This document shows positions 33,232-52,020 of a stretch of 63,767 bases of DNA, one piece after another (within the stretch, counting starts at the first letter, position 1; every line of letters begins with the position of its first letter). Made by a program: the position numbers and the translations under genes. The notes below the pieces were generated by a model that saw only the letters and a program-made list of their open reading frames with translations, was not told the origin of the DNA and searched no databases. Origin of the DNA: Alphaproteobacteria bacterium (GTDB lineage Bacteria > Pseudomonadota > Alphaproteobacteria > Micropepsales > Micropepsaceae); contig CANJBZ010000024.1 of the NCBI GenBank assembly GCA_947473475.1, forward strand, positions 1 through 63,767. Direction: 5' to 3'.

Positions 33232-34035
33232 ATGGATAAGATGCGTCATGCGCCAAAATCTTTGCGGGCACGGCTGCGGCTTTGGCACGCCGCCGTGGCT
33301 ATCGCTGCACTCGTTCTGGGCTATTCCGCCTATGCGTGGGCGGACGGCTATCTGCTGAACCGCCGCTTGGTGATGGAGCCCGCCGATCGTATCCCGATGG
33401 ACACGGCACTTGCACCCTACGCTATGTCCATGGGGCGCAGTGCATTCCAGGCGAACTGCGCTTCCTGTCACGGCGCGGACATGCGAGGCAGCACACGCAC
33501 GGGTGTGCCGAACCTCAGCGACAACATCTGGCTCTACGATTTCGGGCGCGTGTCCGACATCGAGCGCACGGTGCTGTATGGCATCCGCGCGGGAGTGGGA
33601 AAATCCCACAACGTCACCGACATGCCCGCCATCGGCAGACAAAACGCCCTGAGCCCAGCTGAGATCAAAGACGTGATCGCCTATATGCATACCCTGCGCA
33701 AACAGGAAGCCGATCCAGCCGCAGCCGAGCGCGGCAGCGCCATCTTTCAGGACAAAGGTGTCTGCTACGATTGCCATTCGCGCGATGCGAGCGGGATTTC
33801 CGATTACGGCGCCCCCAGCCTGCTCGACGACGATACGCTGTTCGGCAACAGCGATGAGGCGCTCTACAAATCCATCTACGATGGGCGGCACGGCAAGTGT
33901 CCGGCCTGGGCCGGCAAGCTGTCCTTCGCCACCATTCGCGCCATTGCCGTCTACGTGCATTCCTTATCGCAGGAGGCTCCGGCGTCTCCGAGCAACCAAC
34001 CGCCCGGCGCGGAAACGGAGCAGACCGCAGGATAA
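33232..34035 (+). CDS. Membrane-anchored dihaem cytochrome c (CcoP-like)
   Basis: 267 residues. One N-terminal anchor (HAAVAIAALVLGYSAYAW) then two haem c domains: CASCHGADMRG and CYDCHSRDASG, with Met ligands probably in VTDMPAIGR and the C-terminal domain. The layout and segments such as GVPNLSDNIWLYD and IERTVLYGIRAG are those of subunit III (CcoP/FixP) of cbb3 oxidases, but no ccoNOQ genes are present. It starts a plus-strand group with a prolyl isomerase (two bases downstream) and a HupE-like protein. Confidence 0.88.
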   Translation: MDKMRHAPKSLRARLRLWHAAVAIAALVLGYSAYAWADGYLLNRRLVMEPADRIPMDTALAPYAMSMGRSAFQANCASCHGADMRGSTRTGVPNLSDNIWLYDFGRVSDIERTVLYGIRAGVGKSHNVTDMPAIGRQNALSPAEIKDVIAYMHTLRKQEADPAAAERGSAIFQDKGVCYDCHSRDASGISDYGAPSLLDDDTLFGNSDEALYKSIYDGRHGKCPAWAGKLSFATIRAIAVYVHSLSQEAPASPSNQPPGAETEQTAG

Positions 34036-34984: not shown

Positions 34985-35169
34985 CTCCTCCACCGCGAAG
35001 CGGGGGAGGGGGACCATGCAAAGCATGGTGGAGGGGGCGGGTGCGCCTCTGCTCGTGGACGTTCAAGTACAAATAAATCAGCGGGGCACCTTTGTTGAAT
35101 AGGTCCAAGCGCCCGGCCGCCCCCTCCACCGCCTGCGGCGGTCCCCCTCCCCCGCTTCGCAGGGGAGGA
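34985..35169. repeat. Inverted pair of REP-like repeats flanking the start of the HupE-like gene
   Basis: The unit at 34985-35040 (ending tggagggggcgg) is the reverse complement of the unit at 35116-35169 (ccgccccctcca...). The two can form a long hairpin with a 75-base loop holding the TTG at 35092. The unit also occurs at 32735-32790. Confidence 0.8.
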
Positions 35170-36372
35170 TCTCTGTTTTGCGTAGTCCTTCTTTTTTTGC
35201 TTAGCCTTGCTTTCCCCGCCCTTGCCCATACCAAAAGCGAAACGCAGTCGGTTTGGCAGATTGCCGGCACCACCGTGCATGTGGCCTTCACCATTCCCGA
35301 AATTGAATTGCCGCGGCTAGCGCACCCCGACCGCACGCCCATCACCAATGCCGAGCTGACGGATTATGTGCGCAAGAACGTCGCCGTCGTGGAAGGCGAT
35401 GACGCGTGCAAGCGCAGCGAGGATGTGCGCGCTGTTGGCGCCACGGAAGGCTTTCGCCGTTTTGAAATGGTGTTCAGCTGCACCGATGCGGCGAAGATGG
35501 CGATCCATTCATCCGCCTTCTTCGACATCGTGCCCACGCACATCACCTATGCGCAGATCATCACGGAAAAAGGCGATCTGATTTCGCAAATCCTGACACC
35601 GGATCAACGGACGCTGGGCTTGGCGTCGGCGTCCGGTGACAGCCCGCTGCAAAATGCGAGTTTCCTGCAATACATCGCCATGGGCATCGATCATATCTTC
35701 ACCGGATACGATCATCAGGCCTTTCTGCTGGCGCTGGTGCTGCTGTCGAGCCGGCTGCGGGACCTGGTCTTCGTCATCACCGGTTTCACCATCGGGCACA
35801 GCATTTCGCTCAGCCTTGCGGTGACCGGCATCATTCGTCCGCATGCCGAGTACATCGACTCACTCGTCGGCCTCACCATCGCGTTGATCGCGGCGGAGAA
35901 CATCGCGGAGAGCGCGCATCGCCGGGGCACGATCGCGCTCGCCTTTGGCGGCATCATGCTGGCGTTTGCGCTTGCGGGTTTCGCCGGATTCAACGCCTTG
36001 CCGGTTTATCTGGTGATTGGCGCGGCGATCTTCGCCACCAATTACATGATGATGGCGGGGTTCATCAAAGACGCGGCGCGCTTGCGCCTGCTGGTGACGC
36101 TGGTCTTCGGCACGATTCACGGCTTCAGTTTCGCGGCCAATCTTCTGGAAATGAAGCTGCCCCCCGAACGCCTTGCCGAACTTCTTGTCGGCTTTAACGC
36201 GGGCGTCGAAATCGGTCAGCTGGCCGTGGTGGGCGTGATTTTGCTGGGGCTCGCGCTGCTCCGATATTTCAAGCTGACGCTCCCGCGGGCGATCACCGTG
36301 GACGTTCTCTCCGCGGTGCTTGTGGCCCTGGGGCTGTATTGGTTCGTCAGCCGCGGTTATGCGGTGGTGTGA
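35092..36372 (+). CDS. HupE/UreJ-like membrane protein with periplasmic N-terminal domain
   Basis: About 426 residues from TTG 35092. A hydrophobic signal segment (SLFCVVLLFLLSLAFPALA) is followed by a 150-residue soluble domain, then about seven membrane spans. IAMGIDHIFTGYDHQAFLLAL is the HupE/UreJ_2 signature with its conserved His/Asp, followed by TGFTIGHSISLSLA, GTIHGFSFA and GFNAGVEIGQLAVV. HupE/UreJ relatives are linked to nickel or metal handling, but this subfamily is uncharacterised. No ATG exists before the mature protein: the possible starts are TTG 35092/35095 upstream of the repeat or CTG 35173 within its end, so the repeat unit probably encodes part of the leader. Confidence 0.85.
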   Translation: MLNRSKRPAAPSTACGGPPPPLRRGGSLFCVVLLFLLSLAFPALAHTKSETQSVWQIAGTTVHVAFTIPEIELPRLAHPDRTPITNAELTDYVRKNVAVVEGDDACKRSEDVRAVGATEGFRRFEMVFSCTDAAKMAIHSSAFFDIVPTHITYAQIITEKGDLISQILTPDQRTLGLASASGDSPLQNASFLQYIAMGIDHIFTGYDHQAFLLALVLLSSRLRDLVFVITGFTIGHSISLSLAVTGIIRPHAEYIDSLVGLTIALIAAENIAESAHRRGTIALAFGGIMLAFALAGFAGFNALPVYLVIGAAIFATNYMMMAGFIKDAARLRLLVTLVFGTIHGFSFAANLLEMKLPPERLAELLVGFNAGVEIGQLAVVGVILLGLALLRYFKLTLPRAITVDVLSAVLVALGLYWFVSRGYAVV

Positions 36373-36864
36373 TCAGACAAACCCGATCAGCCGGCCGCAT
36401 ACGACGACCATCAACCAGAATCCGAGCGAAACGGCGCCCTGAACGCGCACCGCTTGCGGCGGAATCCGCTGCCGGTCCCATAGCGCCACATCCCTGAATG
36501 TGACGAACTGGAAGTAGAGCATGTTGAGGCCGGCAAGCAGCATGAGGATCATCTTCATGTCGAAGAAGGCGATCCCGAAATAGGTCAGCGGCTTCGACAT
36601 CCAGAGCATGGCCCCGAAGATGGCGGCGATGACGAAGCTGGTCCACGTCCAGGGAAGCATCTCGTCCGCAACCTCGGTCACCGGACGGTCGCGCCAGACC
36701 AGGCCCATCAATCGCATATCGAGGCGCGTGATCGAGCCGAGCACGATGACGATGGCGATGACGTGAAGCGTCTCGAACGCCGGAAACATCCAGAAGGAGC
36801 TGCGCATCCCTTCCGAGAAAGACAGATCGTTGACCCACTGAAAAATGCCGATGAGGAAATCCAT
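36373..36864 (-). CDS. Four-span membrane protein, DUF6644-like, member 1
   Basis: 163 residues. Four membrane spans: FETLHVIAIVIVLGSITRLD with His34, WTSFVIAAIFGAMLWMSKPL, FDMKMILMLLAGLNMLYFQF and GFWLMVVVCGRLIGFV. Shares with the two neighbours and with the C-terminal third of the 477-residue protein a His at the start of span 1, a W-x-SKP motif after span 2 and a GRLxx(Y/F) motif at the end. Start is ATG 36864. It converges with the HupE-like gene, with stops abutting. Function unknown; His pairs could ligate haem b. Confidence 0.8.
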   Translation of the reverse strand: MDFLIGIFQWVNDLSFSEGMRSSFWMFPAFETLHVIAIVIVLGSITRLDMRLMGLVWRDRPVTEVADEMLPWTWTSFVIAAIFGAMLWMSKPLTYFGIAFFDMKMILMLLAGLNMLYFQFVTFRDVALWDRQRIPPQAVRVQGAVSLGFWLMVVVCGRLIGFV

Positions 36865-36881
36865 TGCCAGCTGCTCCGCCG

Positions 36882-37394
36882 TTATTGGGGGCGTAGATCG
36901 AGATAAGCGATCATTCGTCCGGCCGCCGCTATGCCGATCCACAGCACCAGGGAGACGCTTGCCAAAGCATTCGCGAGATTGCGATTCGCGGGCGCACTCC
37001 AATAGTTCGGATCGCGTTTCGTGGTCCGCTCATAAAACATCATGATGAGGACCGTGATGAACAGCAGGACCATTTTCGTCTTGAAGCCGATGTTGAGAAG
37101 CTCACGCGCGGGTTCGGCAAGCGTCTGCACGGTTCCCGTGAGGAACAGAACAATGAGGGCCGTCCAAAACCACGGCATGAGATCGGCGGACATTTTAGCA
37201 AAGCTTTGCTGCCTGCCCGTAAAGCCCAAGAGGCGCATGTTCAGAAGCCCAGCCGACATCATAACTATCGCGACGCAAATGATGTGAATGCACTGCGAGA
37301 GCGGAATAATCAGCCAGGTCAAAAATTCATTGGTGTCTGAAACGACCGCATTGGCAGGCGTCAAAGACAGCCATTCGGCAAAGCCTTCCAGCAT
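36882..37394 (-). CDS. Four-span membrane protein, DUF6644-like, member 2
   Basis: 170 residues from ATG 37394. LIIPLSQCIHIICVAIVMMS carries the family His (His37), then WTALIVLFLTGTVQTLAEPA in place of the SKP motif, FKTKMVLLFITVLIMMFYE, and the final span ending GIAAAGRMIAYLD. It precedes member 1 by 17 bases, so both are in one transcript, separated from member 3 by a terminator. Topology and His position match members 1 and 3. Confidence 0.8.
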   Translation of the reverse strand: MLEGFAEWLSLTPANAVVSDTNEFLTWLIIPLSQCIHIICVAIVMMSAGLLNMRLLGFTGRQQSFAKMSADLMPWFWTALIVLFLTGTVQTLAEPARELLNIGFKTKMVLLFITVLIMMFYERTTKRDPNYWSAPANRNLANALASVSLVLWIGIAAAGRMIAYLDLRPQ

Positions 37395-37516
37395 CGAGCC
37401 CCCACAATTATCAGTCCGAATGTAAGCATACCTTAGCCGCAAAAAGCTTCGCCGCTAAAGGATTTTGCTGGACAACAGAGGTTCGCCAACAGGCGCCCAC
37501 TCACATAGAAACCCAA

Positions 37517-37553
37517 TAAAAAACCGCCGCACCCGATTGGAGTGCGGCGGTTT
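37517..37553 (-). terminator. Rho-independent terminator (minus strand)
   Basis: On the minus strand a 12-bp stem aaaccgccgcac / gtgcggcggttt with a nine-base loop is followed by tttta. It ends the operon running from 39695 to 37585 and separates it from the 36882/36373 pair. Confidence 0.85.
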
Positions 37554-37584
37554 GAGCCTTCGACTTCCGAAAAGGCGGAAGCGT

Positions 37585-38067
37585 TTATGCTGTATAAAGC
37601 TGGCCAAGATAAGCGGTCAGACGGCCAACGACGAGCACGGCGGCCCAGACGAGGGCGGTGATCGCCACGAACCGCATCGCACTCGGCGGCGCTTTTCCTG
37701 CAGCCTGCCAACTGGCGGCTTCCGCCTTCAGACGCTTCTGGAAGTAGATCGTCACGATCGCGCCTGTGAGCACGAAGATCAGCTTCCACTCGAACATGCC
37801 GTCAGCCAGATAACGCGCGGGCTTTGAAACCCACAGCGTCGTGCCGCTGTAAACCTGAATGATGAAGCCGACCCAAATGACCGGGATCAGGCGCGGCAGC
37901 GCCGTGATCGGAATTGTACGGAACAATCCGAACAGCCGCAGCGCAATAATGAAAATCAAACCAACAACAATCGCGTTGCCAAAGGCATGGAGCGTCAGCG
38001 CATACGGCCACCCCCAAGACTCTCTGACCCACGTCGCGTACTCAGTACTTTGGATTACCTCGAGCAC
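37585..38067 (-). CDS. Four-span membrane protein, DUF6644-like, member 3
   Basis: 160 residues from GTG 38067, with gggagga seven bases upstream. The N-terminal amphipathic STEYATWVRESWGWP is followed by span 1 LTLHAFGNAIVVGLIFIIAL with His27, then VWVGFII-type span 2 ending TTLWVSKPARYL, EWKLIFVLTGAIVTIYFQ and VLVVGRLTAYLG. I recognise the ESWGWPxALTLHAFG N-terminus from uncharacterised membrane proteins in other Proteobacteria. It is in one operon with the 34-residue peptide and the 477-residue fusion protein. Confidence 0.85.
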   Translation of the reverse strand: MLEVIQSTEYATWVRESWGWPYALTLHAFGNAIVVGLIFIIALRLFGLFRTIPITALPRLIPVIWVGFIIQVYSGTTLWVSKPARYLADGMFEWKLIFVLTGAIVTIYFQKRLKAEAASWQAAGKAPPSAMRFVAITALVWAAVLVVGRLTAYLGQLYTA

Positions 38068-38131
38068 GTCATCCTCCCCACGATAGTAATGTCATGTTCC
38101 GGCTCATACTGGCCGGACAACGATTGGCCGG

Positions 38132-38236
38132 TTAGCGATTGGTGTCGTCGATAGCCTTGTTCAGGAGGTACATGCCCCCGAACGTGATGCCCAACACCAC
38201 AATCGCCAAGCCAATAACCAAAAGAAGCAAATTCAT
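38132..38236 (-). CDS. 34-residue single-span membrane peptide
   Basis: A short frame of 34 residues with a hydrophobic span, NLLLLVIGLAIVVLGITFGG, a positively placed Lys and an acidic tail KAIDDTNR. A ribosome binding site (aagga) precedes ATG 38236. It lies in the 194-base gap between the 477-residue protein and member 3, same strand, with short spacing both sides, like the small accessory subunits found in membrane redox complexes. No known family. Confidence 0.7.
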   Translation of the reverse strand: MNLLLLVIGLAIVVLGITFGGMYLLNKAIDDTNR

Positions 38237-38261
38237 GGTCTAAATCCTTCCCCGGTCGATA

Positions 38262-39695
38262 TCAGACGTACGGCAGCAAACGGCCGCCCATGATCACGCC
38301 TATCCATGAGATAAGCAGGATCACGGCGAACCACTTGGCCGTAATTGGCGCGTCCTCTCCCGCTTTGACGTTCCACAGGGAGTCGGACAGGGAGAAATAC
38401 ATGACGACGATCGCGCCGATCGGAAGGAAGAACATCTTCGGAATGAAGCTGGTCTCATTCACGTAGCGATAGGTGTCCGCCATCAGCATCAGCATGCCCG
38501 TGAACACGTTCATGATCACCCCGAAGACGCCGAGCGGCAACAGACGGTGGACAGCGGAGAACGGCACCGCCTTCCAGAAGCCCAGCACGCGCAGGACGAC
38601 GGCCAAAACGGTGCCGAAGACCAGCGAGTAGCCGAAGAAGTGGATCGTCTGCCATGGCACGAACCAGATCACGTTATTGATCAGGTTCTCGATGTTCGGG
38701 CTCCAGAAGATGTTGGGGTCCGTCGGCATTGGCGAGGTCCGAATTTCCGGATGGTTGATCAGACCGCCGCGATGGCCGGTTTCCGCCATGATGCCCAAGG
38801 TCACGATCGCCAGGACCAGGACCGAGTTAAGCGCGGGCTTGGAGAAGCGGCCGCGATAGCGATAGCGCCAGAGTTCGAAATAGGCCGAAGCTCCAGTCGC
38901 CGCCAGGCCGAATAGCGACAGAATCGCCATATCGCGATGGGCATTGATCGCGGCCTTTGTTATTTCGAGAATCGGCGGATCGGTAAGCGCCCACATGGCA
39001 GCCGCGCCGGTTACATAGGTCGGAGCGCCGAGGATGCCGCAAGCGGCGAACAACACCAGCGAGGTGCGCTTGATCACCGTGTTATCCCGCATAAGCCCGT
39101 AGATGAAGAAGGCGAGCGTGATAACGAAGCCGATGGTCGGAAAGTGGTTCAGGATCATGTGGACATGCGACCAAGCCTGAGGCGTACCTACGCCTTCAGG
39201 AATGTCGCTGGCCGAGACGCCTGGCGAAGCGCGTGTCGCGAGATGAAGCTCCGGGTGGTCGCTTTCCCATCCGGTTTCGCCGGCCACGATCATCAGCATA
39301 AGCGTGATGAACGAAAGGCCGAGAACCAAATGGACGATATTGTTCGACACGCGGCCCGACTTCATCGACCGTAATGCTTCCCAACCCGCCACCGCGCCGG
39401 TTACGACCAGAACAACGAGCGCCGCAATGGACCAAGCATAATGATAACCCGTGATGTCCGCCGAAACGCGCTTGGTATCGGCCGCGACTTTCGCGAGAGT
39501 CATATCGCCACTTAGGTAGGTCGGTATCGCGATGACGCCGAGCACGCCAATGGCGCCCAAGCAGGCCCATTGCATCGTCTGATTCTTGGTGACGACGGAC
39601 GTCACATAGAAACAGAGCACGAAAATGAGGCCCACCAGCGGAAACACGCTGATCAGCATGTGCAAGTGTGGCCAAGTATCCGGTATTAAATGCAT
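38262..39695 (-). CDS. Large membrane protein: internally duplicated module plus DUF6644-like module
   Basis: 477 residues, about 12 membrane spans. Residues 8-151 and 175-318 are two copies of one module, in register at an offset of 167: WPHLHMLISVFPLVG against WSHVHMILNHFPTIG, IPTYLSG against APTYVTG, a His at 85 and 253, GETG against AETG, and HPEL against HPEI. Residues 345-477 form a third module with IHFFGYSLVFG (His352) and a terminal MGGRLLPYV, matching the separate four-span proteins at 36.4-38.1 kb. Pairs of conserved His in adjacent spans would suit haem b ligation. No function known. First gene of its operon. Confidence 0.85.
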   Translation of the reverse strand: MHLIPDTWPHLHMLISVFPLVGLIFVLCFYVTSVVTKNQTMQWACLGAIGVLGVIAIPTYLSGDMTLAKVAADTKRVSADITGYHYAWSIAALVVLVVTGAVAGWEALRSMKSGRVSNNIVHLVLGLSFITLMLMIVAGETGWESDHPELHLATRASPGVSASDIPEGVGTPQAWSHVHMILNHFPTIGFVITLAFFIYGLMRDNTVIKRTSLVLFAACGILGAPTYVTGAAAMWALTDPPILEITKAAINAHRDMAILSLFGLAATGASAYFELWRYRYRGRFSKPALNSVLVLAIVTLGIMAETGHRGGLINHPEIRTSPMPTDPNIFWSPNIENLINNVIWFVPWQTIHFFGYSLVFGTVLAVVLRVLGFWKAVPFSAVHRLLPLGVFGVIMNVFTGMLMLMADTYRYVNETSFIPKMFFLPIGAIVVMYFSLSDSLWNVKAGEDAPITAKWFAVILLISWIGVIMGGRLLPYV

Positions 39696-39928
39696 ATACC
39701 CCCCAACCTTCCTTAATCTCCCACCTGCTCCACTGAAGACAATTCATACAAATGTCAATGTTTTAGTCATCTTTGCTCGGGAGATTTCCAAAATTTAACG
39801 GCGCGTGATTTTCGTTTTCCGAGCGTAACGGAGCCCCTCTTGGCCATTTGGCGCACGTTGTGCGCAAACCGCATGTGCCATTCCGGAAAAGATATCCACA
39901 GGCCGGGGCCCTGCCTGACGCCGGCGGC
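39696..39928. other. Gap between the membrane operon and the DUF6152 gene
   Basis: 233 bases without a gene. It should hold the promoter of the minus-strand membrane operon; ttgaca is present on the minus strand at 39758-39753 but without a matching -10 at normal distance. Confidence 0.4.
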
Positions 39929-40345
39929 TTAGTGCTGACAGACCTCTTCGCCCGGCGGCTGCAGCCACAACACGCCCTTGGCCGGCTGGCCGTTAACCAG
40001 CAATTGCTGCTCGTCGGCAAGCAAGCCGCCGGCCGCTCCGTCCTTGCGGGGGTGAATGCCGAGCGAGATTTTATCGCCGGGCCGCAACAGCGAACTGGTC
40101 CAACCTCCGCGCGCAAGCACCGTGGGAGAACTACCTTCGATCTGCCACGTCGCGCGTCCGTTCCTGGCCGTATCGGCGAGGACCTGAATCATCACATGCG
40201 GGCTGGTCCAGACATATTCTTTGACGGTGCCGGACAGCGTTACGGTCTTGTCGCGCAGATACATAGCGAAGGAGTGGTGCGCATAACCGGGTGTAGCCCC
40301 AAGACTTAGGGCCATCACAGCGAGCGTGAGCAACCGACTTTTCAA
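39929..40345 (-). CDS. Secreted DUF6152 family protein
   Basis: 138 residues from TTG 40345. Signal peptide SRLLTLAVMALSLGATPGYA, mature protein starts HHSFAMYLRDKTVTLSGTVK. The family features are all there: AHHSFA at the mature N-terminus, GTVKEYVWTSPHVMIQVLA, ATWQIEGSSPTVLARGGW, LLRPGDKISLGIHPRKDGAAGG. The N-terminal His-His and the PH motif could bind a metal. DUF6152 proteins are often encoded near proteins of the GDSxG/DF type, five of which are in this window. It is upstream of, and codirectional with, the membrane operon and divergent from the ECF sigma operon. Confidence 0.88.
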   Translation of the reverse strand: MKSRLLTLAVMALSLGATPGYAHHSFAMYLRDKTVTLSGTVKEYVWTSPHVMIQVLADTARNGRATWQIEGSSPTVLARGGWTSSLLRPGDKISLGIHPRKDGAAGGLLADEQQLLVNGQPAKGVLWLQPPGEEVCQH

Positions 40346-40414: not shown

Positions 40415-40456
40415 CTAGAGCATGATCCGATCAAAAGGAATCGGATCATGCTCTAG
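40415..40456. repeat. Perfect 16-bp inverted repeat (ctagagcatgatccga), possible bidirectional terminator/repeat element
   Basis: ctagagcatgatccga at 40415-40430 pairs with tcggatcatgctctag at 40441-40456 around a ten-base loop, followed by atttttta on the plus strand. The core agagcatgatccga is a dispersed palindrome I recognise from Hyphomicrobiales genomes. It lies between the divergent DUF6152 and ECF operons, so it would insulate them or affect their expression. Confidence 0.8.
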
Positions 40457-40596: not shown

Positions 40597-40896
40597 ATGA
40601 ATGACCGGATGGATTTCATGTTGCAGCGGCTGAAAACGGCCTCTGGCGACCGCGACCTGTCGCGGCTCGAATCCGACGTGTGGCGGCGGATCGATGCCGG
40701 CAAGCGCCGGGACTTTTTCGGCGGTCACACGGTGCAGGTACAATTGGCGGTCACCTGCGCGGCCCTGGTGGCAGGTCTGATGATCGCGAAACTGACGGAC
40801 TACGATGCGATGCCGCGGGCGCTGAACAGCGAATTGGTCGTGCTTTCGGACGACAGCGCCATGGCTCCCTCGGTAATGCTTGAGGGCGGAATTTGA
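40597..40896 (+). CDS. Small single-span membrane protein, CnrY-like anti-sigma candidate
   Basis: 99 residues from ATG 40597 (ggag about nine bases upstream). A 45-residue cytoplasmic helix-rich part (LQRLKTASGDRDLSRLESDV) precedes one membrane span (LAVTCAALVAGLMIAKL) and a short periplasmic tail. Size, topology and position before a CnrX-like sensor and an ECF sigma factor match CnrY, the anti-sigma factor of the Cupriavidus CnrYXH system. Sequence similarity cannot be judged by eye, so the role is inferred from context. Overlaps the next gene (TTGA). Confidence 0.7.
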   Translation: MNDRMDFMLQRLKTASGDRDLSRLESDVWRRIDAGKRRDFFGGHTVQVQLAVTCAALVAGLMIAKLTDYDAMPRALNSELVVLSDDSAMAPSVMLEGGI

Positions 40897-41357
40897 ACCC
40901 GTTTTGGCGCAATCTTCTGATCACAGTGGTGGTGGCGCTGCTGGCCGGCGGCATCGGCGGCTGGATGGGCGCGCAAAATGCGCTGGATTCCGATGCGCAG
41001 ACCCTGCCCTTGCGCCAGACCGTACACGAGATCGTCCGCCGCGATTTGAATCTGACGGGCGACCAGTCGAAGGAAATCCAGGCGATCGAAGACAAATATT
41101 ACGATCGCCGCATCACGCTGCGGCAAGACGTGGCGACGGCGAACCACGAGTTGGCCGATGCCCTTATGTCCGACATGGCCTTCGGACGGGAAGCGCAGCA
41201 AGCCAGCACCCATGTCGAACGCGGGCTGGGTGAACTTCAGCGCGCGACCATCATGTACGTGCTGGAAGTGCGTGATGTACTGACGCCCGAGCAGCAGATG
41301 GTCTACGACCGCAAAGTTCGCGATGTGCTGACCGCGTCGGCGTCTCCGAAATCGTGA
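40893..41357 (+). CDS. Periplasmic heavy-metal sensor, CnrX-like
   Basis: 154 residues, TTG start overlapping the previous stop. N-terminal anchor NLLITVVVALLAGGIGGWMG, then a four-helix CnrX/CpxP-like hairpin: LRQTVHEIVRRDLNLTGDQS, IEDKYYDRRITLRQDVATAN, FGREAQQASTHVERGLGELQ, TPEQQMVYDRKVRDVL. The helix pattern LTxxQxxxIxxIExxY is that of the periplasmic heavy metal sensor family. His27-type residues in TVHEIV and the TANHEL His could bind metal. It would control release of the ECF sigma factor. Confidence 0.85.
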   Translation: MNPFWRNLLITVVVALLAGGIGGWMGAQNALDSDAQTLPLRQTVHEIVRRDLNLTGDQSKEIQAIEDKYYDRRITLRQDVATANHELADALMSDMAFGREAQQASTHVERGLGELQRATIMYVLEVRDVLTPEQQMVYDRKVRDVLTASASPKS

Positions 41358-41953
41358 GGGAAGCCAGCGAGCCATCGGATGCGTCGCTGGCCGTCGCGGC
41401 GCGCGCCGGGAACGAAGTGGCCTTCGCCGCTTTGATGCGCCGGCATAAGGGCTGGCTTTATCAATTCATTCGCCGCTACGTCGCCGACCGGGACGAAGCC
41501 TATGACGTGCTGCAGGAAAGTTTTGTTTCCACGTGGGCGGCCCTTGCCCGCTACGATCCCGAGCGTCCGTTCGAAGCCTGGCTCCGGCGCATCGCGCTGA
41601 ACAAGTGCCGGGACCGGGCACGCCGTAATGCCGTCAAGCGTGCCGCCTTCCGTGTGCTCGGACTTGAAGTAGCGTCCAAGCCCGACGAGAACGCCGCGCC
41701 ATCGGCCGATGCGCGCGCCCGCGTGGATTCCGCGCTGCAGCGCCTGGAGGCCGCTATCGCCCAGCTTCCGCGCACTCTGAAGGAGCCGCTGGTGCTGACG
41801 ATGCTGGAGGGCCTGTCGCATCGCGAGGCGGGCGACATCCTGGGCACCAACGCAAAAGCCATCGAGACAAGGGTTTATCGCGCCAAGCGCCGCCTCGCTG
41901 AAATGCTCGACCCGGAGATCCTGGACGACATGACCGAGCTGCAAACCTATTAG
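41354..41953 (+). CDS. ECF-family RNA polymerase sigma factor (CnrH-like)
   Basis: 199 residues, GTG start overlapping the sensor stop (GTGA). Sigma region 2: FAALMRRHKGWLYQFIRRYV, DEAYDVLQESFVSTW, PFEAWLRRIALNKCRDRARR. Region 4: LPRTLKEPLVLTMLEGLSHR followed by EAGDILGTNAKAIETRVYRA. Third gene of a Y-X-H type operon, so its activity is probably held by the two upstream membrane proteins. Likely targets are its own promoter and the divergent DUF6152/membrane operons (inference). Confidence 0.92.
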   Translation: MREASEPSDASLAVAARAGNEVAFAALMRRHKGWLYQFIRRYVADRDEAYDVLQESFVSTWAALARYDPERPFEAWLRRIALNKCRDRARRNAVKRAAFRVLGLEVASKPDENAAPSADARARVDSALQRLEAAIAQLPRTLKEPLVLTMLEGLSHREAGDILGTNAKAIETRVYRAKRRLAEMLDPEILDDMTELQTY

Positions 41954-48282: not shown

Positions 48283-48319
48283 GCTACCCTTTCAAGGCTT
48301 GGTTGAGGGGCGTGGGACG

Positions 48320-49219
48320 ATGCGTAACGGTTGGACAATCTCTATTGCTGCTGTGTTGGCGCTGGCGCTTTCGCCGGTCTGGCAGAGCGCCAAAGCGGCG
48401 GACACAGGGCCGGTAAACTTCTCGGGCATGTGGGTGCATCCGTTTTTTCCGGGTATCGAACCGCCGGCAGAGGGACCCGGACCGGTGTTCAACCTCACGC
48501 GGCGCCCCAACGGCCAGAGCAACAACAACCAGTTCGTTGGCGATTTCTCGAACCCCATACTCAAACCGGAAGCCGCCGCAATCGTAAAGCAGCATGGGGA
48601 GATTTCACAGAAGGGTTTGACCTATCCCACACCCAGCAATCGCTGCTGGCCGTCGGGCGTGCCCTACATCTTCTTCCAGCCGGGCATGCAGATGCTGCAA
48701 CAGCAGGACGAAATCGTTTTCATCTATATGCGCAATCATGAAGTCCGCCATGTGCGCCTGAACCAGAAGCATCCGGAGCATGTAACACCGTCCTGGTATG
48801 GCGATTCCGTGGCCCATTATGAAGGCGACTCACTTGTCATCGACACCGTCGGCATTAAGGCCGACCGCCCCTATGCCATGGTGGACATGTTCGGCACGCC
48901 GTTCAGCGCCGGCATTCATGTCGTCGAGCGTTATCGCATGATCGATTACGACGATGCCAAGGAAGCAATGCTTCGCAATATGAAGATCAATCCGCGCGTG
49001 CCCGACACCCGCGCCGATCTGGACTACCGCGGCAAGCAATTGCAGGTGATTTTCACGGTCGAAGACAATGGCGTCTTCACCATGCCGTGGTCGGGCGCCA
49101 TTACCTACGAAAAGCCCAAAATGGAATGGGAAGAAATCGTTTGCGCCGACAATCCGTTCGATTTCTTCGCGGAAAAAATCGGCGCGAAAGTTCCGACCGC
49201 CGCCAAGCCGGATTTTTGA
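48320..49219 (+). CDS. Secreted GDSxG/DF-family protein, paralog C
   Basis: 299 residues from ATG 48320. Signal peptide WTISIAAVLALALSPVWQSA, cleaved near AKAAD. NFSGMWVHPFF at the mature start, NPILKPEAAAIVKQHGE, SNRCWPSGVPYIFF with the first Cys, GDSVAHYEGDSLVIDTVG, HVVERYRMIDYDDAK, EDNGVFTMPW, EIVCADNPF with the second Cys, and C-terminal KPDF. Most similar to paralog D, which follows nine bases later, so C and D are a tandem duplication in one operon after the SCO1 gene. Confidence 0.87.
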   Translation: MRNGWTISIAAVLALALSPVWQSAKAADTGPVNFSGMWVHPFFPGIEPPAEGPGPVFNLTRRPNGQSNNNQFVGDFSNPILKPEAAAIVKQHGEISQKGLTYPTPSNRCWPSGVPYIFFQPGMQMLQQQDEIVFIYMRNHEVRHVRLNQKHPEHVTPSWYGDSVAHYEGDSLVIDTVGIKADRPYAMVDMFGTPFSAGIHVVERYRMIDYDDAKEAMLRNMKINPRVPDTRADLDYRGKQLQVIFTVEDNGVFTMPWSGAITYEKPKMEWEEIVCADNPFDFFAEKIGAKVPTAAKPDF

Positions 49220-49227
49220 AACCCATC

Positions 49228-50136
49228 ATGCGCGGCCGGCGCTTTCTTTGGGCCCTGGCGTTGGCCGCCGCACTTTCTCCCGCTTGGGCACAGGGGCCCT
49301 CGCCCACCGCTTCGACGGTCGCAATTCCCGATTTCTCCGGTGTATGGCACCGCTGGTTTCGTCCCGGTCTCGGCCCTGCCGTCTCAGGTCCAGGGCCGGT
49401 GACGAACCTGTCGCGGCTGAATGGCGTCAGCAATTACAACCAGCTTGCCGGCGATTACAAAAATCCCATCCTGAAGCCAGAGGCCTCCGCCCTTGTGAAA
49501 AAGCGCGGGGACCTTTCGCTGAGCGGCGTGGGATATGAGACGCCGAGCAATCAATGCTGGCCTGGCGGCGTACCTTATGTGTTCTGGAATTTCGGCGTGC
49601 AAATTCTGCAACAACCGAAGGAAGTCACCATGGTCTATTTCCACGATCATGAGGTGCGGCGGGTGCGGATGAACGGGGCGCACCCTGCCCATGTAGCCCC
49701 GTCATGGTATGGCGACTCGGTCGGCCATTATGAAGGCGACACGCTGGTCATCGACACGGTGGGCGTCAAGCAAGGACCGTTCGCCATGGCCGACATGTAC
49801 GGCACGCCCTACAGCCAAGCCCTGCACGTCGTCGAACGCTACCGCGTGGTCGATTACGACACCGCCAAAGCCGCCATAGACCGCGAAGCCAAGGTCAATA
49901 CCCTCTATCCACGCGGGCTGAACGCCATCGAGTTCGACCCCAACTACAGGGGTAAGCACCTTCAGCTGGAACTGACGGTCGAGGACGAAGGCGTCTTCAC
50001 CACGCCCTGGACTTCGGTCATGATCTACGGGCGCCCTATCGGTGCGTGGATCGAACATGTCTGCGCCGAGAACACGCAGGAATATTACAACAACGGTCAA
50101 TCCGCCGTGCCGACGGCGAAAACGCCGGATTTCTGA
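49228..50136 (+). CDS. Secreted GDSxG/DF-family protein, paralog D
   Basis: 302 residues from ATG 49228. Signal peptide RFLWALALAAALSPAWAQG. Family marks: IPDFSGVWHRWF, NPILKPEASALVKKRGD, SNQCWPGGVPYVFW, GDSVGHYEGDTLVIDTVG, HVVERYRVVDYDTAK, EDEGVFTTPW, EHVCAEN and C-terminal TPDF. Followed 33 bases later by an alpha/beta hydrolase gene on the same strand. Function unknown. Confidence 0.87.
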   Translation: MRGRRFLWALALAAALSPAWAQGPSPTASTVAIPDFSGVWHRWFRPGLGPAVSGPGPVTNLSRLNGVSNYNQLAGDYKNPILKPEASALVKKRGDLSLSGVGYETPSNQCWPGGVPYVFWNFGVQILQQPKEVTMVYFHDHEVRRVRMNGAHPAHVAPSWYGDSVGHYEGDTLVIDTVGVKQGPFAMADMYGTPYSQALHVVERYRVVDYDTAKAAIDREAKVNTLYPRGLNAIEFDPNYRGKHLQLELTVEDEGVFTTPWTSVMIYGRPIGAWIEHVCAENTQEYYNNGQSAVPTAKTPDF

Positions 50137-51010: not shown

Positions 51011-51898
51011 TCAGAAATCCGCCCGCCCCGCCCGCGGCAGCCCTACCCACTCGTCCTTATAGTGTTCCTGCGGATTGTCGGCGCAGACGCTTTCCGTCCA
51101 TTCGGAAATCAAACGGCGATAGGTGACGCGCGCGGTCAGAGGCTGCGTAAAGGTCTTCGGGTCTTCCATCGTGACCTGCAGCTCCAGCCCCTTAAGATTG
51201 GTGTTGGGATCGTAGCCGGCATCGCGTCCGCCGCCGCCGACAGTGCCCTCTGAGGTTTCATATTTGTCGATTTGCGCTTTTGCCGTCGGGCCGTCGATCA
51301 GGCGGTAGCGCTCGACCACATGCATCTGTTCGCTCTGCGGCGTGCCGAAGCGATCTACCGACGTGTAGGGATCTACTTTCACGCCCACCGTATCGACAAC
51401 CAGCGTGTCGCCTTCCCAGTGGCCGATGGAATCGCCCATTGAACTGGGCACGATCTTCGCCGGATGCGACGCATTCATCCGTATGTGCCGCGTGTTGGCG
51501 TTCTGATCGTACAGGATGTCGATGTCGCCATTCTTGGCGGGCAGCATGACCAAGCCGAGTTGCATGGCAAACGTGAAAGGCGGCGCAATCGAGCGGCACT
51601 GATCCTGTGAATTGCGAAATCCGCCCTTTGTCGCCATCTCGCCCTTCTGCCGCACGACGGCAGCGGCTTCACGCGTAAGAATCGGATTGTTGTAATCGCC
51701 GACCAGGCGGCCCGCATTGGCTTTGCCGTCGGGAAGACGGCTGAGATTGCGCAACGGCTGCGGCCCCGCCGGCATGCCTTCGAAATTGAACGCGTTCTTG
51801 CCGTAGCGATGCCCGAACATCTCAGGCTCGGCGGCGAAGGTGGGCACAGACAGGGCTGCCAGTGAAACCACACTGAAGAACAGAGCCTGACGTTTCAT
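51011..51898 (-). CDS. Secreted GDSxG/DF-family protein, paralog E
   Basis: 295 residues from ATG 51898. Signal peptide KRQALFFSVVSLAALSVPTF. Family marks: NAFNFEGMPAGPQPLRNLSR (as in paralog B), NPILTREAAAVVRQKGE, DQCRSIAPPFTFAM with the first Cys, GDSIGHWEGDTLVVDTVG, HVVERYRLIDGPTAK, MEDPKTFTQPL, ESVCADN, and C-terminal RADF instead of PDF. B and E form one subgroup (Cys followed by H/R, then PP), A, C and D another (CWPGG). Convergent with the hydrolase gene; monocistronic. Confidence 0.87.
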   Translation of the reverse strand: MKRQALFFSVVSLAALSVPTFAAEPEMFGHRYGKNAFNFEGMPAGPQPLRNLSRLPDGKANAGRLVGDYNNPILTREAAAVVRQKGEMATKGGFRNSQDQCRSIAPPFTFAMQLGLVMLPAKNGDIDILYDQNANTRHIRMNASHPAKIVPSSMGDSIGHWEGDTLVVDTVGVKVDPYTSVDRFGTPQSEQMHVVERYRLIDGPTAKAQIDKYETSEGTVGGGGRDAGYDPNTNLKGLELQVTMEDPKTFTQPLTARVTYRRLISEWTESVCADNPQEHYKDEWVGLPRAGRADF

Positions 51899-52020
51899 CT
51901 TAAGTCTCCCTCTCCCGTATTTTGTGTAGCCAACTCTAGCACCCGAGCAGACCACGGATAAGAGAGTGCGCAAACGCCTCCTGTCGCTCTCGAAATGCGG
52001 CTCAGACAATTTCAGTATTG

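Follow-up and report, generated by a model that had tools for sequence, protein, structure and literature searches.

The 63,767-nucleotide stretch of DNA examined here (contig CANJBZ010000024.1 of assembly GCA_947473475.1, hereafter referred to as the window) derives from an alphaproteobacterial genome that spans 3.87 Mb and is assembled into 66 contigs. Between positions 36373 and 40345, it carries six genes on the - strand in the order F, E, D, C, B, and A, of which F encodes a secreted protein of the DUF6152 family, D encodes a 34-residue peptide, and the remaining four encode membrane proteins. A preliminary description made from the letters of the window had placed the genes at these same positions, where we likewise find them, and had further proposed that all six form one set or complex. 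Our analysis instead indicates that the conserved units are DUF6152 together with DUF6644, E-D-C, and DUF6644 pairs such as B-A. The features of the region are as follows:

39929-40345, - strand: F, DUF6152, small secreted protein with a predicted mature start HHSF (PF19649, 4e-27)
38262-39695, - strand: E, 477 residues, two DUF2231 repeats (~1-150 and ~165-325) followed by a DUF6644 domain (~335-477) (PF09990, 1.1e-7)
38132-38236, - strand: D, 34-residue peptide, single hydrophobic span, conserved Asn in [LMF]N, recognized by its position between E and C
37585-38067, - strand: C, four-span DUF6644 protein, end gene of E-D-C (A2 profile, see below, 4e-56)
37521-37553, - strand: intrinsic terminator 3' of C, 14-pair stem plus T run, z -5.65
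36882-37394, - strand: B, four-span DUF6644 protein, first gene of the pair (PF20349, 1.9e-8)
36373-36864, - strand: A, four-span DUF6644 protein, second gene of the pair (PF20349, 3e-8)

F and E are 233 nt apart. The terminator that follows C is strong, and therefore F/E-D-C and B-A are separate units. We rejected a single complex of all six genes on account of this terminator and the recurrence of the parts in different sets.

The DUF6644 family and its DUF6152 partner

In a Pfam search, A and B matched DUF6644 (PF20349) above its cut-off (3e-8 and 1.9e-8, respectively), and C and the end of E had no match of their own. A profile of 25 relatives (A2), which includes A, B, and C and excludes E, recognized the end of E at 9e-32 and C at 4e-56 (C itself being inside the profile), while hhalign related the end of E to DUF6644 at a probability of 100, with a DUF6644 set that includes E-type members. 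These comparisons unite the three four-span proteins with the last third of E in a single family, DUF6644, in agreement with the common descent proposed for the four membrane units in the preliminary description. Two motifs singled out in that description also extend to the family as a whole, namely a His at the start of span 1 (LHVIA, IHIIC, LHAFG, and IHFFG in the four units) and a terminal Gly-Arg (GRLIGF, GRMIAY, GRLTAY, and GRLLPY). Among 118 distinct DUF6644 sequences, of which 116 have letters at the scored columns, the span-1 His27 (C numbering) is found in 116/116, terminal Gly148 in 116/116, and Arg149 in 114/116, while Gly75 occurs in 116 and Arg44, Lys95, and Trp141 each occur in 115. 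Because this conservation is nearly complete across DUF6644 members, we regard the His and Gly-Arg motifs as a family signature, not a product of chance. C is 46-70% identical to the C proteins of related loci. A search of PDB sequences with the DUF6644 and E profiles gave no match at E-values as high as 10.

The F protein matches DUF6152 (PF19649) with 94.6 bits against a curated cut-off of 27 (4e-27). The residues invariant among 36 DUF6152 sequences are His23, His24, Gly39, Pro49, and His50; Ala22, Trp67, Gly81, and Gly90 are conserved in at least 90%. His23 and His24 lie directly behind an Ala-X-Ala-like site, the presumed signal cleavage point, and therefore cleavage would leave a free N-terminal His. 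The earlier claim of a secreted DUF6152 protein with an N-terminal His-His is thus consistent with both the Pfam match and the invariance, with the cleavage itself being read from the sequence, and DUF6152 probably starts with two metal-binding histidines. By sequence, the conserved His-His and Pro-His are candidate residues of a histidine brace, in which a free N-terminal His and a second His would share one copper. The structure model of F is of low confidence (predicted local distance difference test score [pLDDT] of 48.6). The strand order of this model resembles an oligonucleotide/oligosaccharide-binding (OB) fold, and its best structural rows are similarly OB-like, with Z up to 6.9 for a model of that pLDDT. 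No CopC match was obtained for F in the Pfam search, and none of the Foldseek matches to the models of E and F reached E 0.001. Of the 20 DUF6152 genes in the genome of the window, four cluster in a 2.7-kb segment of contig C40 (locus L152), and the DUF6152-bearing contigs are C40, C15, C47, C6, C5, C16, C29, C7, C28, C39, C19, C8, C14, C21, and that of the window (genome G000).

Many proteobacteria carry unstudied DUF6152 and DUF6644 genes side by side. Of the 240 genomes that make up a class sample, 33 contain DUF6152 and 34 contain DUF6644, with 32 genomes in common. We fetched 31 loci of this sample, all from genomes other than that of the window, and DUF6152 was located directly upstream of DUF6644 on the same strand in every one (31/31), the two genes being spaced -40 to 240 nt apart. 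Accordingly, the secreted partner that had been noted beside DUF6644 in the window is a recurrent feature. L135 was counted as adjacent despite a short DUF6152 frame (73 residues, 9e-9), while three rows were dropped: G145 (a weak match of 27 residues), G065 (DUF6152 only, at a contig end), and the unfetched G293, in which the two genes are adjacent by coordinates. In a phylum sample, DUF6644 was found in 42 of 398 genomes, and loci were taken from 29 of the 41 other matching genomes, with the remaining 12 left out. DUF6152 was situated within ~1.5 kb of DUF6644 in 21 of these 29 loci (directly upstream in 19, downstream in one, and on the opposite strand in one). All 19 single DUF6644 genes had DUF6152 nearby, compared with two of the ten adjacent DUF6644 pairs, the other eight having none in the locus. 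From these counts, it follows that DUF6644 comes either with DUF6152 or with a second DUF6644. Annotated examples of the DUF6152-DUF6644 pair are found in Paracoccus denitrificans PD1222, P. pantotrophus, P. versutus, and Azospirillum ramasamyi. In a plasmid record of Novosphingobium humi, DUF6152 and a DUF6644 pair are on opposite strands ~2.6 kb apart, and a Croceibacterium plasmid record contains two DUF6152 genes with no annotated DUF6644 within 7 kb. Neither DUF6152 nor DUF6644 is named in the literature collection searched, and DUF2231 is named in one of its papers, in a database of cysteines.

A relationship of DUF6644 with known membrane proteins emerged from profile comparisons. Of 25 DUF6644 members, four match DUF2214 (best 5.2e-5) and two match CopD (PF05425) at any E-value up to 10 (best 0.0045), none of the 25 reaching the CopD Pfam cut-off. 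The hhalign score of DUF6644 with CopD was 28.4, compared with a mean of 13.9 (standard deviation 2.0) for a block-shuffled null in which 0/40 shuffles reached it, and is comparable to the score of 27.8 obtained for HemJ with CopD as a yardstick. The DUF6644-HemJ score was 19.3, which was reached by 7/40 shuffles. Once E. coli YebZ had joined the CopD sequences, its His154 and Lys230, residues that are each present in 12/12 of them, aligned with the invariant His and Lys of DUF6644. By this profile similarity and the aligned His and Lys, DUF6644 appears to belong to the CopD superfamily. The closer profile relationship of DUF6644 with CopD favors metal handling no less than it does haem. HemJ (UPF0093) does share four spans and an early His with DUF6644, and HemJ-like genes accompany DUF2231 in oxidase loci (see below), but the direct similarity between the two families is not above the null.

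The layout of the gene pair is also that of E. coli yobA-yebZ, in which the two genes are 3 nt apart. As in YobA-YebZ and YcnJ, a small secreted protein with a His at its mature start is encoded directly upstream of a membrane protein of the CopD superfamily, or in the case of B. subtilis YcnJ fused to it. YcnJ is reported to be a CopC-CopD fusion in which His24 (CopC) and His295 (CopD) are needed under copper limitation (PMC13344008; PMC12362106). H295 is a conserved CopD His (PMC13344008), not necessarily the one that aligns with DUF6644. There are differences as well: DUF6152 is predicted to be OB-like and starts with His-His, whereas CopC is a beta-sandwich, and DUF6644 is one four-span unit, whereas YebZ is about twice as long. 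CopC-CopD has a role in copper, and a copper role of DUF6152-DUF6644 is putative. N-terminal histidines bind metals in several folds, including DUF4198, DUF6702, and the Ang domains (Ang-1/Ang-2) on HupE/UreJ_2 permeases, as described in a study that identified N-terminal-His metalloproteins by signal strapping (PMC12537917). The window itself contains a HupE/UreJ_2 protein with a His of this kind behind its signal (see below). As in DUF6152, the His of those proteins is exposed by cleavage, and some are permease-fused or permease-linked; unlike them, DUF6152 has a CopD-like partner, and its putative metal binding is deduced from sequence.

The E-D-C genes

The E protein scored 32.5 bits against DUF2231 (PF09990), above the cut-off of 26.4, with the best stretch at residues 178-312. 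Its first repeat alone scored 21.8 bits, which is below the cut-off, and the two repeats, which make up the first two thirds of E, are mutually related (hhalign probability 100). The structure model of E has a mean pLDDT of 76.8, a predicted template modeling score of 0.81, and 12 long helices. Among ten aligned E proteins, His 85, 147, 177, 179, 184, 253, 308, 315, 352, and 383 are invariant and His 2, 10, and 12 are nearly so. Each repeat has conserved histidines at the start of its first helix, the start of its third helix, and the end of its fourth helix, which would share one face of a four-helix bundle, presumably the periplasmic one.

We searched for E across 84,980 species genomes, a search whose reach is limited to close relatives, and found it in 10 loci, all from alphaproteobacterial metagenome-assembled genomes. 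Two of the ten are on the same contigs as relatives found earlier. Together with the window and a paralogue on contig 58 of the same genome (L046), these loci provide a total of 12 E-D-C loci, a count that omits L059 and L060, each with a partial E at a contig end, and includes L077 and L080, in which a contig end truncates E. In 12/12 loci E is followed by a C gene, and between the two is a one-span peptide of 34-47 residues in 11/12, L080 being the locus in which E and C are only 34 nt apart without D. The single-span mini-peptide recognized in the preliminary description is therefore a recurrent component with one hydrophobic span. In two locus comparisons, the D codon differences were 8 synonymous and 19 replacing (window vs. 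L071) and 4 synonymous and 4 replacing (L072 vs. L077), counts which alone are no demonstration of purifying selection; what speaks for D is instead that its position and start site are conserved, together with the hydrophobic span and the Asn. DUF6152 is present in the fetched DNA of five of the 12 loci (5' of E in the window, L071, and L075, and 3' of C in L072 and L077), and a second DUF6644 pair is present in only two, the window and L079.

The tandem bundles of E are shaped like CydA. In a structural comparison that covered residues of the E model up to ~320 and barely included later ones, the top seven rows were all CydA (Z 12.5-14.0 over 267-283 residues), with unrelated helical proteins next at Z 11.1. 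Such values can reflect a common helical arrangement. Homology of the DUF2231 repeats to CydA was considered and rejected, as the hhalign probability of 0.4 was below the reversed controls. Cytochrome bd (CydA-CydB-CydX) includes CydX, a peptide of 37 residues with one span that is reported to hold the CydA bundles together (PMC6853902), a part that D could play. E-D-C is similar to cytochrome bd in having two four-helix bundles in one chain, that of E, plus a one-span peptide; it differs in that the two have no sequence relation, E ends in a DUF6644 domain, and any haem ligands in E are putative.

Neighboring genes and redox context

Beyond the six genes, the following neighbors are present, all on the + strand:

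33232-34035, + strand: secreted c-type cytochrome, two matched stretches (PF13442, 1.4e-19)
35092-36372, + strand: HupE/UreJ_2 permease with a secreted N-terminal domain starting with His after FPALA, start codon uncertain (PF13795, 2.7e-37)
40597-40896, + strand: one-span protein in anti-sigma position (by gene order; relative in L052)
40893-41357, + strand: periplasmic sensor of the CnrX/NccX family (CnrX structures 3.5e-15, NccX 5.7e-13, PF13801)
41354-41953, + strand: extracytoplasmic function (ECF) sigma factor, best solved match CnrH (6.8e-30)

No PDB relatives of the HupE/UreJ_2 neighbor were found up to an E-value of 1. The one-span, CnrX-like, and ECF sigma genes are divergent from F in the window, and the intergenic region that separates F from the one-span gene contains a 17-pair hairpin with a T run at 40415-40456. 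This arrangement is reminiscent of CnrYXH, its divergent members being CnrX- and CnrH-like, except that the residues which we take to be the metal ligands of CnrX are mostly replaced in the CnrX-like proteins. Since these ligands are mostly lost, metal sensing is doubtful. Relatives of the CnrX-like gene are also found beside E in L052 and L053, and sigma/sensor genes adjoin three of the 12 E-D-C loci in total. Elsewhere in the window, a family of secreted proteins is repeated, its members having ~290-350 residues and a terminal PDF or DF (483-1355, 1374-2297, 48299-49219, and 49087-50136 on the + strand and 51011-52009 on the - strand). Its copy at 48299 has no Pfam match at 0.001, and in the gene lists relatives of this family recur near DUF6152 and DUF6644 genes.

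Several genes near E-D-C suggest a redox context. Cytochromes are encoded near E-D-C in L072 (cytochrome c'), L073 and L076 (class I cytochromes c), and the window and L053 (c-type), while ApbE and a Fer4_5 protein are encoded near the E paralogue of L046 and a flavin mononucleotide (FMN)-binding protein near the E-C genes of L054. In addition, we surveyed 36 loci of lone DUF2231 genes. A pyrroloquinoline quinone (PQQ) dehydrogenase of the glucose/sorbosone type adjoins DUF2231 in 12/36 (L307-L311, L323, L326, L327, L329, and L331-L333), and a lone DUF2231 protein is possibly the membrane partner of such an enzyme. Three of the 12 (L331-L333) have no span-1 His. Another 9/36 (L252, L253, L312, L313, and L315-L319) include cytochrome oxidase subunit I and a HemJ-like (UPF0093) protein, four of them also CtaG. 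E carries a fused version of this arrangement, in which DUF2231 stands beside a HemJ-like four-span protein. Some lone DUF2231 genes are located in apparent copper-resistance operons judged by eye (L256 and L257), and an HMA-domain gene is beside DUF2231 in L328. The DUF6644 pairs of L277 and L282 are located between or beside PQQ dehydrogenase genes.

A candidate envelope metal module

The reading that we favor, and hold only tentatively, is that DUF6152 and DUF6644 would constitute an envelope metal module resembling CopC-CopD, which in E-D-C would be enlarged by two DUF2231 bundles. Its metal would most likely be copper. DUF6152 would be exported and cleaved such that the mature protein begins with His-His, and the free amino end, the His-His, and the conserved Asn-Pro-His probably hold a transition metal together. 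The metal would then be passed to DUF6644, a putative four-span relative of CopD, via the invariant span-1 His, with the invariant Lys and Arg residues of DUF6644 possibly assisting the transfer. E has its DUF6644 domain fused behind two DUF2231 four-helix bundles with histidines at their presumably periplasmic helix ends, D might hold the complex together in the manner of CydX in cytochrome bd, and C, a second DUF6644, would complete it. In this reading, E-D-C is an enlarged form of the DUF6152-DUF6644 module with a likely redox link, and would use nearby c-type cytochromes to connect the respiratory chain with the entry or the redox state of the metal. B-A is a separate DUF6644 pair. Family relations, invariant residues, gene adjacency, and operon order are observed here, and the identity of the metal, the direction of its transfer, complex formation, and redox coupling are inferred.

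A number of observations weigh against this proposal. The DUF6644 domain of E alone has no CopD similarity (hhalign probability 0.5), and reversed controls in other comparisons reach a probability of 9.9. Signal cleavage of DUF6152 was read from the sequence with no prediction program. The two families are also not always associated, as 17 of the 20 DUF6152 genes in the genome of the window have no DUF6644 in the fetched DNA, two single DUF6644 genes of that genome (L048 and L050) have no DUF6152, and DUF6152 is likewise missing near most of the DUF6644 pairs in the phylum sample and most E-D-C loci. The flanks of the DUF6152-DUF6644 pair vary by locus and are mostly unrelated to metals. Metal ATP-binding cassette (ABC) permeases (L136), a FecCD-type ABC system (L150), and cydAB (L148) are found among them, and metal genes in the flanks were dropped as an argument, the loci being too few. 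The replaced CnrX ligands and the PQQ dehydrogenase and oxidase neighbors of DUF2231 likewise run counter to a metal function.

These DUF2231 neighbors are the chief reason why a different reading comes close behind the metal module. In such a membrane redox function, E and DUF6644 would have b-haem or a quinone site on the periplasmic side and would relay electrons between the quinone pool on the one hand and periplasmic enzymes or c-type cytochromes on the other, with DUF6152 as a redox or assembly partner; we consider such an electron-transfer module a plausible though less probable explanation. It would account for the DUF6644 pairs beside PQQ dehydrogenases, the c-type cytochromes, Fer4_5, ApbE, and FMN-binding proteins near E-D-C, the CydA-like shape of E, and the CydX-like peptide D. 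However, with one invariant His per DUF6644 domain, a His-His pair within a single domain is unavailable. The missing span-1 His in three PQQ-linked DUF2231 proteins, the lack of a detectable sequence relation with CydA, and a DUF6644-HemJ similarity no better than the null also argue against it, and it leaves the His-His start of DUF6152 unexplained. A bolder version, which we consider unlikely, is that E-D-C represents a novel class of respiratory complex, composed of a duplicated DUF2231-CopD-like fusion, a CydX-like clamp, and a second CopD-like subunit, that independently became cytochrome-bd-like and exchanges electrons and copper between a His-tipped periplasmic protein, c-type cytochromes, and the quinone pool.

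Metals could also be handled for export, sequestration, or stress sensing instead of supply, in which case the genes would protect the periplasm under the control of the divergent CnrX/CnrH-like genes. The presence of those genes at the window, L052, and L053, the adjoining HupE/UreJ permease, and the lone DUF2231 genes in apparent copper-resistance operons and beside an HMA-domain gene are in keeping with this. Yet sigma/sensor genes are confined to a quarter of the E-D-C loci, the presumed CnrX ligands are mostly unconserved, and no P-type ATPase or resistance-nodulation-division (RND) pump was seen adjoining E-D-C in the gene lists, all of which makes this explanation improbable. Still more doubtful is that the adjacency simply reflects old operon inheritance of envelope genes with only a loose relationship and that DUF6152 functions by itself, perhaps as a metal-free OB domain that binds some ligand. 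The many DUF6152 genes with no nearby DUF6644 in the genome of the window and the ordinary OB-like fold of the low-confidence model speak for this. Against it stand the tight same-strand adjacency across many families with differing flanks and the invariance of His-His where cleavage is presumed.

How bacteria import copper through the inner membrane is poorly understood, and few routes have been proposed, among them CopC-CopD. If the CopC-CopD-like reading is true, DUF6152-DUF6644 would be a second such pair, widespread and with another kind of secreted partner, and the use that CopD-like proteins make of their His and Lys could be tested directly in laboratory strains such as Paracoccus denitrificans PD1222. 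DUF6152, DUF6644, and DUF2231 each gain a context open to testing, and E-D-C, having a mini-subunit of its own, would be unusual among membrane complexes.

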